Made by a program: the position numbers and the translations under genes. The notes beneath the pieces were generated by a model, which searched no databases, was not told where the DNA came from, and saw only the letters and a program-made list of their open reading frames with translations. From Lacrimispora sphenoides JCM 1415 (GTDB lineage Bacteria; Bacillota; Clostridia; Lachnospirales; Lachnospiraceae), in the NCBI RefSeq assembly GCF_900105615.1, contig NZ_LT630003.1, positions 3,732,501-3,796,500 of the forward strand: 64,000 nt of DNA, read 5' to 3'. Numbering within the stretch: the first letter of the stretch is position 1; each line of letters opens with the position of its first letter. Shown piece after piece: positions 11,311 through 32,313 of the stretch.

Positions 11311-11465
11311 TATAATGTTCACGAAAGCGATGAGCAGTGCGAAATAAGACGGATAGTGATTTTCGTTGTGCCCCGCACATAAGAAAATCACTATCCGTCT
11401 TATTTCATAGGGCGAAAGCCCGTGAGCGAGTAAAACCTACGGTTTTACTCGCTGCACCGCGGACT
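11311..11465 (+). repeat. Structured repeat element, copy 1 (full length)
   Basis: TATAAT (11311-11316, preceded by TGG as an extended -10) is followed three bases later by CACGAAAGC. Inverted pairs then nest: GCAGTGC (11334-11340) with GCACCGC (11454-11460), one mismatch; a perfect 24-bp stem 11341-11364 / 11383-11406 with a small apical GTGC/GCAC hairpin; GGGC-GAAA-GCCC with a GNRA-type loop; and a perfect 12-bp stem 11426-11437 / 11441-11452 with a 3-nt loop. It ends at GGACT, about 40 bp before the next gene's start. Two relatives occur at 31352-31505 and 24723-24817. It is probably transcribed as the leader of the repeat-protein gene; the function is unknown. Confidence 0.8.
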
Positions 11466-11506
11466 ATAGCATATGAATAAAACGGCTAGACAGGAGGAAG
11501 GACGGT

Positions 11507-24678: not shown

Positions 24679-24722
24679 AACTGTACCCTCCTGATATTAT
24701 TTCTTATGGTTATTATAACATA

Positions 24723-24817
24723 AGTCCGCAGTGATGAGATTTTTTATTATGTACAAGTACAAAGATAATCTTTCCCAGCCTTATTTCGCACTGCTCATTG
24801 CTTTCGTGGTTAGTATA
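24723..24817 (-). repeat. Structured repeat element, copy 3 (shortened)
   Basis: On the minus strand TATACT (24817-24812), preceded by TGA as in an extended -10, is followed after three bases by CACGAAAGCAATGAGCAGTG. The closing stem GCAGTG/CACTGC is perfect. The apical hairpin is GTAC-TT-GTAC, where the full copies have GTGC/GCAC, so both sides changed together. Compared with copies 1 and 2, about 59 bp are missing: the far arm of the long stem, the GNRA-type hairpin and the 12-bp stem. The element ends GGACT, 45 bp before the hddC start. Confidence 0.75.
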
Positions 24818-31318: not shown

Positions 31319-31351
31319 TGAATCCTCCATGTTACATAAAATTATCCCACA

Positions 31352-31505
31352 GGTCCGTAGTGCAGCTTGGGAAACTTTCAGTTTCCCAAGCTCACGGGCA
31401 TTCGCCCTATGAAATATGCCAGGAAAAGATTTTCTTATGTGCGAGCACAACGAAAATCTTTTTCTGCCATAGTTCGCACTACTCATTGCTTTCGTGAAGG
31501 TTATA
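31352..31505 (-). repeat. Structured repeat element, copy 2 (full length)
   Basis: Minus strand: TATAAC (31505-31500, overlapping the wzm stop) is followed after three bases by CACGAAAGCAATGAG. The closing stem GTAGTGC (31482-31476) / GCACTAC (31363-31357) is perfect. The long stem 31475-31452 / 31434-31411 pairs at 21 of 24 positions. GGGC-GAAT-GCCC follows, then a perfect 12-bp stem 31391-31380 / 31376-31365 with a 3-nt loop. Geometry is the same as copy 1 to within one base, yet the stem sequences are unrelated. It ends GGACC, 34 bp before the wzt start. Confidence 0.8.
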
Positions 31506-32313
31506 GTACATCAGAAAAGTGTGGGCGCAGTTTTTTAAATACTTTCAGCCCTATAAGCATCAGGACAATGGTCACTGTCCAGAAATAAAGTCCCAGGGTC
31601 GGCCGTTCTGTCAGCCAGTTTCCGGTCAGCATGCTGTCACGGTATCCGGCCACAATATAATAGAAAGGATTTAGCTTAAGCAGTACCGGCAGCCAGGATG
31701 GAATTGATTGAAACATCTCCGGCGCCCACATAATCGGCACCATCCACATGCCAAACTGCAGAAAGATCCCTATGATCTGAGCCATATCCTTGAAAAATAC
31801 ATGAATGGCACTGGTAAAATAAGCAATGGCCAGTGACAGCATGGAGCTTGCAAAGGAATAATACAAAATCTGGATCCAGCTTGCCTTTGGAAGGAAGCCG
31901 TAGCAGAAAAATACCAGGATCATGATGATTGCAAATATACCATGTACCATCAGACAGGAAATCATCTTAATGACCGGAAGGATTTCTACCCGGAACACCA
32001 CCTTTTTCACCAGATAATTATATTCCTGAAGACAGCCCGTCCCCATATTCAGCACCTCGCTGAAATAAAACCATGGCACAATGCCTGGAATCAGCCAAAG
32101 CACGTAAGGGTAATCCGGGACCGGAGGTACGCTTTTAAAGCCCATCTGGAATACGAAAAAGTATACCAGCACGGTTGCCATAGGCTGCAGGAACATCCAG
32201 GCGATTCCAAAATAGGAACCTACAAACCGTTTTTTAAAATCCGCCTTTGACAGATCCAGAATAAGCTTTCTTTTTGTAATAATTTCTTTTATTAAGGAAA
32301 CCAGATAATTCAT
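31501..32313 (-). CDS. wzm: Polysaccharide ABC exporter permease
   Basis: The 270-residue protein has the ABC-2 permease layout of Wzm/TagG: an amphipathic N-terminus (DLSKADFKKRFVGSYFGIAW), six membrane helices, and the family block LVYFFVFQMGFKS with a re-entrant loop near the middle. It forms the channel through which the glycan made by this operon leaves the cytoplasm. The stop TAA overlaps the TATAAC box of the structured element that precedes wzt. It is 15 bp downstream of rfbC. Confidence 0.93.
   Translation of the reverse strand: MNYLVSLIKEIITKRKLILDLSKADFKKRFVGSYFGIAWMFLQPMATVLVYFFVFQMGFKSVPPVPDYPYVLWLIPGIVPWFYFSEVLNMGTGCLQEYNYLVKKVVFRVEILPVIKMISCLMVHGIFAIIMILVFFCYGFLPKASWIQILYYSFASSMLSLAIAYFTSAIHVFFKDMAQIIGIFLQFGMWMVPIMWAPEMFQSIPSWLPVLLKLNPFYYIVAGYRDSMLTGNWLTERPTLGLYFWTVTIVLMLIGLKVFKKLRPHFSDVL

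Follow-up and report, generated by a model that had tools for sequence, protein, structure and literature searches.

Covariation is what normally serves to prove that an RNA fold is functional. The family in Rfam that comes nearest to the element analyzed here is Clostridiales-1 (RF01699), itself a dispersed repeat; the Clostridiales-1 RNA was described by Weinberg et al. (2010; PMC2864571). In the Bacillus cereus group, the intergenic repeats bcr1-bcr18, of which bcr1-3 are described as MITE-like, are reported to be transcribed in about half of the copies, which lie in UTRs or within operons (PMC3446304). A different kind of precedent comes from work on mutation: template switching in hairpins is described as a source of paired changes, loop inversions and stem extension that operates without selection on the fold, and in rRNA genes, loop inversion combined with compensatory change was recorded 6 times and loop inversion alone 69 times (PMC8794818).

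The repeat family reported here is new; its general kind (MITE-like palindromic) is known. In the literature on Clostridiales-1 and on MITE-like or palindromic bacterial repeats, we found no account of this family. The reading that we favor, and hold with moderate confidence to be the right one, is that of a non-autonomous, MITE-like palindromic repeat of ~147 bp that is targeted to TATAAT, retains its paired arms through template switching and is constrained in its tip and junction blocks.

Copies in the window and distribution of the family

The window, that is, the whole stretch of 64,000 nt under analysis (positions 3732501-3796500 of a 5.30-Mb genome), contains three elements with common blocks, two complete and one truncated (Table 1), in agreement with an earlier reading made from the DNA letters alone (hereafter, the sequence-only reading). 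Allowing up to 3 mismatches, the first block was found at 3 places in the window, where shuffles lead one to expect 0.00, and at 21 in the whole genome; 20 of these 21 left ends have a right end no more than 220 nt away, and one (L011) has none within its locus. In copies 1 and 2, a closing stem surrounds three hairpins: one of 24 bp, whose top consists of an internal loop with unequal sides and a short apical hairpin, a GGGC hairpin and one of 12-13 bp. Most of the earlier description of the stems is borne out: the first stem is perfect over 24 bp in copy 1 and pairs at 21 of 24 positions in copy 2, the stem given as 12 bp is present in both (12-13 bp by our measurement), the closing stem shows the C-G to T-A swap, and the tip of copy 3 is GTAC. 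Three points required correction. The loop consensus given earlier matches, at up to 3 mismatches, only copy 2, the copy 1 loop having an extra C (GTGCCCCGCAC); and the arms said to be unrelated between copies go back to a single sequence from which they have diverged, as a comparison of 16 full copies from this genome shows. Finally, copy 3 does belong to the family, as proposed, but is internally deleted and lacks the second and third hairpins. At its site, there is no element in G008 (empty allele ATATATGATATAATAAC) and a ~31-nt remnant in G002; in the filled allele, the element has TATGATATACTAAC to its left and TATGTTATAATAAC to its right.

Table 1. Coordinates of the three copies and of their parts within the window
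Feature	Position	Strand	Basis or remark
TATAAT (-10-like hexamer), three bases 5' of copy 1	11311..11316	+	sequence; family-wide offset
Copy 1, full element, 147 nt	11320..11466	+	sequence, fold, covariance model
Copy 1 neighbours: upstream ORF end; downstream ORF start	11245; 11507	both +	
Copy 1 closing stem, 5' arm GCAGTGC	11334..11340	+	fold, covariation
Copy 1 first hairpin, 5' arm, 24 bp perfect	11341..11364	+	fold
Copy 1 conserved tip GTTGTGCCCCGCACATAA (asymmetric internal loop and apical hairpin)	11365..11382	+	
Copy 1 first hairpin, 3' arm	11383..11406	+	fold
Copy 1 second hairpin GGGCGAAAGCCC	11410..11421	+	sequence, fold
Copy 1 third hairpin, 13 bp, 3-nt loop	11425..11453	+	fold
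Copy 1 closing stem, 3' arm GCACCGC	11454..11460	+	fold; GCACTGC in six orthologous copies
Copy 2, full element, 146 nt	31351..31496	-	sequence, fold, covariance model
ORF upstream of copy 2	31501-32313	-	transporter permease-like by eye; stop codon adjoins copy 2 start
Copy 2 first hairpin, 5' arm	31452..31475	-	sequence, fold
Copy 2 first hairpin, 3' arm	31411..31434	-	sequence, fold
Copy 2 third hairpin	31364..31392	-	sequence, fold
Copy 3, internally deleted remnant, 87 nt	24722..24808	-	covariance-model match, allele comparison

A covariance model of the kind suggested by the sequence-only reading, built from 16 copies of this genome, yielded 37 matches in it at E ≤1. We take the top 20 to be full elements, and the remaining matches to be remnants or hairpins read on the reverse strand. 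With the matches in further genomes, 50 of the 116 genomes searched, this one included, contain at least one. Seven genomes of the genus (G000, G002, G006, G008, G009, G012 and G014) have 24-27 matches each among the matches listed (E ≤0.001, reverse-strand readings included, with a maximum of 27 candidates scored in any one genome); of the other genus genomes (25 in total), 17 have 1-4 and one has none. In all, we collected 142 copies at 42 sites (7 secondary matches and L062, identical to L214, were left out, and L040 is not included). Among the fetched copies at the 36 sites in the seven multi-copy genomes, 24 sites are filled in at least two genomes and seven in all seven. Remnants are found at several sites; thus, the elements also decay. 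Copy 1 had no match in plasmid and phage collections at E 1e-5.

The element is short, non-coding, dispersed and patchy among related genomes, as MITEs are; terminal inverted repeats of the MITE type are not present, the inverted part being the 6-7-bp closing stem and the outer ends not being complementary. Some related arrangements were seen on the way. The element or Clostridiales-1 is arranged in head-to-tail arrays in G012 (L205, 646-1065) and in G027, G036 and G092 (L237-L240); repeated pieces of the third-hairpin arm with GCACTGCGGACT lie 3' of elements at L022, L191, L197 and L171. A more diverged member is located, by eye, directly 3' of an ORF ending in YMENQDY throughout the genus, including species without the expansion (L041, L066, L068, L069, L071-L074, L076 and L178).

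Covariation and proposed copying between hairpin arms

Compared with shuffled sequences, the folding energy is lower by 12.6 SD for copy 1, 7.3 SD for copy 2 and 10.5 SD for another copy in the same genome (L002). In the alignment of 16 copies from this genome, 97.0% of 800 cells are paired, and 29 of the 50 pairs have changed on both sides, values that were not equalled in any of 500 shuffles; covariation scores 0.421, vs 0.147 in shuffled and 0.05-0.09 in slid versions. Given this strong covariation, the observation made in the sequence-only reading stands: the multi-copy, multi-stem, covarying family is real, with parts of its fold constrained.

The conclusion drawn from it, namely, that compensatory change means selection for the fold, does not hold in that form, because the copies contain exact loop inversions and symmetric tips, several with no donor copy among those fetched, so that covariation alone is not proof of a selected RNA. 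The clearest cases come from G000 and G006, which have 17 sites in common and whose flanks differ at 289 of 11620 positions (2.5%). At 3 of these 17 sites, the loop of the third hairpin is the exact reverse complement (GGA/TCC, GCA/TGC and TGC/GCA), and the TGC/GCA flip is the sole difference in 146 nt. For the first two flips, none of the fetched copies of the same genome could have served as donor of the derived loop. Among 185 orthologous pairs with a parsed triloop in the seven genomes (parsing succeeded for 102 of the 142 copies), 64 are the same and 21 are exact inversions, the remainder differing by one base (46), by two (23) or by three in another manner (31); overall, exact inversions were detected at 9 sites. 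The tips of the 142 copies include one that is inverted as a whole (L232, G014) and two that have been symmetrised, one side being copied from the other (L233 in G014 and L157 in G006). Window copy 1 itself differs from its G006 counterpart by two adjacent pairs changed on both arms, the G006 state being found in G014 and G008 as well.

The frequency of double changes rises with flank divergence, from 9 of 1285 pairs (<4%) to 523 of 5039 (>22%); the corresponding figures for single changes are 65 of 1285 and 430 of 5039. Of 118 distinct double changes, 52 are transversions, which are not explicable by a G-U intermediate. The paired changes thus appear to derive, at least in part, from DNA copying errors between hairpin arms, and the inverted loops and symmetric tips, as read from the aligned copies, bear the signature of template switching between such arms.

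Paired changes could also spread by gene conversion among copies (concerted evolution), with no need for local template switching. Similar or identical third hairpins do occur at different sites within one genome, and the G006 state of the TGC/GCA flip (L024/L142) is present in four other G006 copies, so that gene conversion is possible at that site. However, for six derived states (L031, L155, L232, L233, L157 and L033), including the unique inverted and symmetric tips and the AGTG/CACT change of window copy 1, a comparison with the other full copies that had been fetched from each genome, 15-18 in number, revealed no donor. We consider gene conversion an improbable source of the paired changes.

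At the trpS leader, the third hairpin has been lengthened by ~30 nt of new, mostly palindromic sequence in G009 (L179) and G012 (L213), an extension of the kind that template switching can produce.

Insertion sites, gene context and residual selection

Located three bases 5' of the element, TATAAT is exact at 12 of 36 sites and is found with at most one mismatch at 21 and at most two at 25, compared with no more than one exact occurrence at each of the other offsets from 0 to 11. This test and that for duplications covered 36 of the 42 sites, namely, those that belong to the multi-copy genomes. Clean empty alleles are available for 6 sites (L051, L031, L030, L187, L182 and L023), each with a single TATAAT-like hexamer; an empty allele within the multi-copy clade could represent precise loss of the element. 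The L134 site, where G000 and G006 have remnants and the G001 allele is unclear, was kept apart from these six. At the trpS site, the empty alleles contain promoter-like TTGACA and TACAAT. The target at L023 is inside the end of the upstream coding sequence, which indicates that the target is the sequence and not promoter function. Four sites (L051, L031, L030 and L187) visibly have the hexamer within an imperfect direct repeat of ~9-14 bp; site-specific duplication is a weak signal overall in a pairwise permutation test (222 observed vs 210.5 ± 6.7 in shuffles, with 98 of 2000 reaching the observed value).

Insertion three bases 3' of a TATAAT-like sequence would account for the orientation of the elements, most of which lie in sense ahead of a gene. 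By script, the following gene is in sense at 21 of the 25 loci of this genome, as would be expected of cis-regulatory leaders, and at 23 when L029 and L031 are added by eye; L011 and L039 have no sense-oriented next gene. The distance from the element to that gene is mostly 14-140 nt, and 11 of the 25 elements start between -28 and +4 nt from the stop codon of an upstream gene that runs in the same direction. Judging from this placement, the elements should be transcribed as leader or intercistronic RNA.

The same placement, with a promoter-like box directly 5' and a gene in sense, raises the question of whether the element is a functional structured leader RNA or sRNA that is transcribed from the adjacent promoter and folds co-transcriptionally, with its stems under RNA selection and a role in mRNA stability, attenuation or trans-acting regulation as an sRNA. 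On this reading, a transcript should start at CACGAAAG and the leader should run through the element. The assignment of the nearest family, Clostridiales-1, to sRNA genes in Rfam is in line with it, and so is the conservation of the tip and junction blocks in situ at orthologous sites. Among 43 copy pairs with flanks >20% apart, the differing fraction is 6.2% in the tip, 7.8% in the second-hairpin block, 5.1% in the closing stem and 7.3% in the 5' tail, compared with 17.3% in the first stem, 16.4% in the third hairpin, 13.7% in the 40 bases upstream and 49.6% in the 40 bases downstream. For 35 pairs with flanks <5% apart, the values are 2.9% (tip), 4.1% (first stem), 3.3% (300-nt flanks) and 6.3% (40 bases downstream), so that at this distance, the element is no better conserved than the 300-nt flanks. 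At high divergence, the comparison thus shows sequence-level constraint on the tip and junction blocks at fixed sites.

The mismatches in the stems are less consistent, and the three wobble counts disagree. Counted as distinct events at 20 sites, G-T outnumbers A-C by 53 to 26 (p 0.003), and over copy pairs, which are not independent, by 378 to 272, both in favor of a leader RNA or sRNA; in raw cells from 141 of the 142 copies, there is no preference, the first hairpin having 66 G-T and 57 A-C, the third 24 and 26, and the two together 90 and 83. The excess by distinct events points to some RNA-level selection. However, G-T is rare in the 16-copy alignment (11 of 800 cells, 1.4%) compared with the 42 distinct tRNAs of the same genome (68 of 916 pairs, 7.4%, and no A-C, which the tRNA finder may favour). 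A leader RNA or sRNA is further at odds with the tolerance of loop inversions and symmetric tips, with the remnant-only or empty state of several sites in some species, and with the nature of the downstream genes, which, read by eye, have no obvious common pathway. Altogether, we regard it as rather unlikely that such a function explains the family. In view of the loop inversions, the many transversion pairs and the few G-U pairs, we reject selection for an RNA fold as the sole cause. Neither do we accept a purely mutational origin, given that the tip and junction are conserved in place and that G-T exceeds A-C by distinct events.

The history of a MITE-like palindromic repeat shaped by template switching, which we prefer, might run as follows. 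The element would insert ~3 bp 3' of a TATAAT-like sequence, be it the -10 box of a promoter or a sequence at a gene end, and the insertion would leave an imperfect direct repeat of ~9-14 bp across the hexamer, as suggested by the four sites above with weak statistical support overall. Placed in sense before a gene, the element would be transcribed as part of a leader or intercistronic RNA. During replication, long DNA hairpins could form and the polymerase could switch template between the arms, a mechanism that we take from established knowledge; such switching would keep the arms complementary, invert loops and render tips symmetric. The constraint on the tip and junction would most likely reflect recognition of the hairpin, or of its RNA, by a host or mobilising factor.

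A common hairpin tip and the relation to known repeats

No transposase could be tied to the family. An IS200/IS605-type (Y1) transposase that mobilises the hairpin, as in REP/RAYT systems, would be compatible with a conserved tip with flanking blocks and with copies dispersed genome-wide; nevertheless, Y1 transposases (PF01797) are absent from 2 of the 7 multi-copy genomes (G009 and G014) and present in 15 of 18 others, and, to our knowledge, these enzymes are not expected to duplicate their target. The distribution of the Y1 enzyme does not match that of the repeats, and we rejected it as partner; mobilization of this type seems highly improbable.

The tip GTTGTGCTTGCACATAAG is found at no fewer than 120 places in at least 117 stretches of genome contigs, whereas ~7-8 chance matches are expected in 257 Gb by our own arithmetic. 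Sorted by pattern, the tip-bearing places among the matches listed comprise 42 of this family, 46 of a family marked by GTTACTATTCA, 13 Clostridiales-1-like, 18 other and 1 at an edge. We know of no name for the GTTACTATTCA palindromic repeats. The same hairpin tip occurs in palindromic repeats that contain GTTACTATTCAC, at L248, L256, L257, L263, L267 and L275, L263 having a full terminal inverted repeat; apart from a tRNA, Rfam gave no match at cut-off in L256, L257, L263, L267, L275 and L277. The sequence GTTACTATTCACNG does not occur in the window. In the 117 tip loci, 16 ORF families recur in three or more loci, none of them a transposase partner by eye: on inspection, the commonest resemble ABC ATPases (13 loci) and, in 6 loci, response regulators, whereas those with 3 loci each have mostly the look of ordinary or spurious ORFs. 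A 620-aa AAA-ATPase/PDDEXK protein recurs in 3 tip loci; an ORF located at most 52 nt from the tip in L246, L261 and L345 had no Pfam match. Tentatively, the tip may be a recognition signal common to at least three families of Lachnospiraceae palindromic repeats, namely, this one, Clostridiales-1 and GTTACTATTCA, and to one putative trans-acting factor, a mobilising or an RNA- or DNA-binding candidate; this appears possible to us, if somewhat doubtful. One conserved hairpin tip that ties several repeats together makes the search for a common factor concrete.

The claim that no named element has this layout holds insofar as the Rfam scan, the comparison that had been called for, returned no family at its cut-off in the window; it does not hold insofar as Clostridiales-1 has a similar layout, with a score below cut-off. 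The RF01699 cut-off of 48 bits is not reached by the best copies in the genus (41.2 bits in G008 and 30.8 in G002) or by L070 from another genus (38.3), and of the 61 genomes searched, the 9 with a match over the cut-off are all outside the 25 of the genus. Conversely, the model of the present family (R1) scores up to 33 bits on 44 Clostridiales-1 stretches, and a number of the higher-scoring matches are limited to the first hairpin. Long perfect hairpins draw spurious miRNA matches, so that a weak RF01699 score alone is not evidence; we dismissed weak miRNA, traJ-II and L20 matches as chance or as an effect of such hairpins. Among the matches listed, Clostridiales-1 has 17 copies in G092 and 23-36 in each of G026, G027 and G031, some in tandem. 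By eye, 10 of 40 rows show a Clostridiales-1 copy flanked by identical 5-mers (such as TTATA, TTTGA, TGAAA or TAATA), four of them in G027 (L400, L402, L403 and L406) and six in G026 (L410, L412, L413, L414, L418 and L419); with these flanks, the 'sRNA' of Rfam looks like a transposable repeat. Because paired changes and inversions fit template switching, covariation tests on long perfect hairpins need a control for inversion, possibly also for Rfam families such as Clostridiales-1.

Among described phenomena, the template-switch mutations in RNA hairpins (PMC8794818) resemble the changes seen here in their multiple paired changes, loop inversions and stem extension, but that 2022 study concerns rRNA genes, unlike the repeat family analyzed here. 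The bcr1-bcr18 repeats (PMC3446304) are intergenic as well, in a different host group, and the likeness is one of description only. The GTTACTATTCA family carries the same 18-base tip on a long hairpin but has another stem and, in L263, terminal inverted repeats GTTACTATTCAC...GTGAATAGTAAC. Like the present family, Clostridiales-1 has several hairpins within a closing stem, the first being long and, in most cases, tipped by GCUUGC, and 2 of the 27 distinct first hairpins examined carry the exact tip GTTGTGCTTGCACATAAG. It differs in its long second hairpin with ATATGAG/CGAATAT (in most copies read), where our family has the 4-bp GGGC hairpin, in a third hairpin of the GGGAGUGCGUAGCAC type vs the variable 12-13-bp hairpin here, and in its ends, with flanking repeats of 5 bp as opposed to ~9-14 bp.
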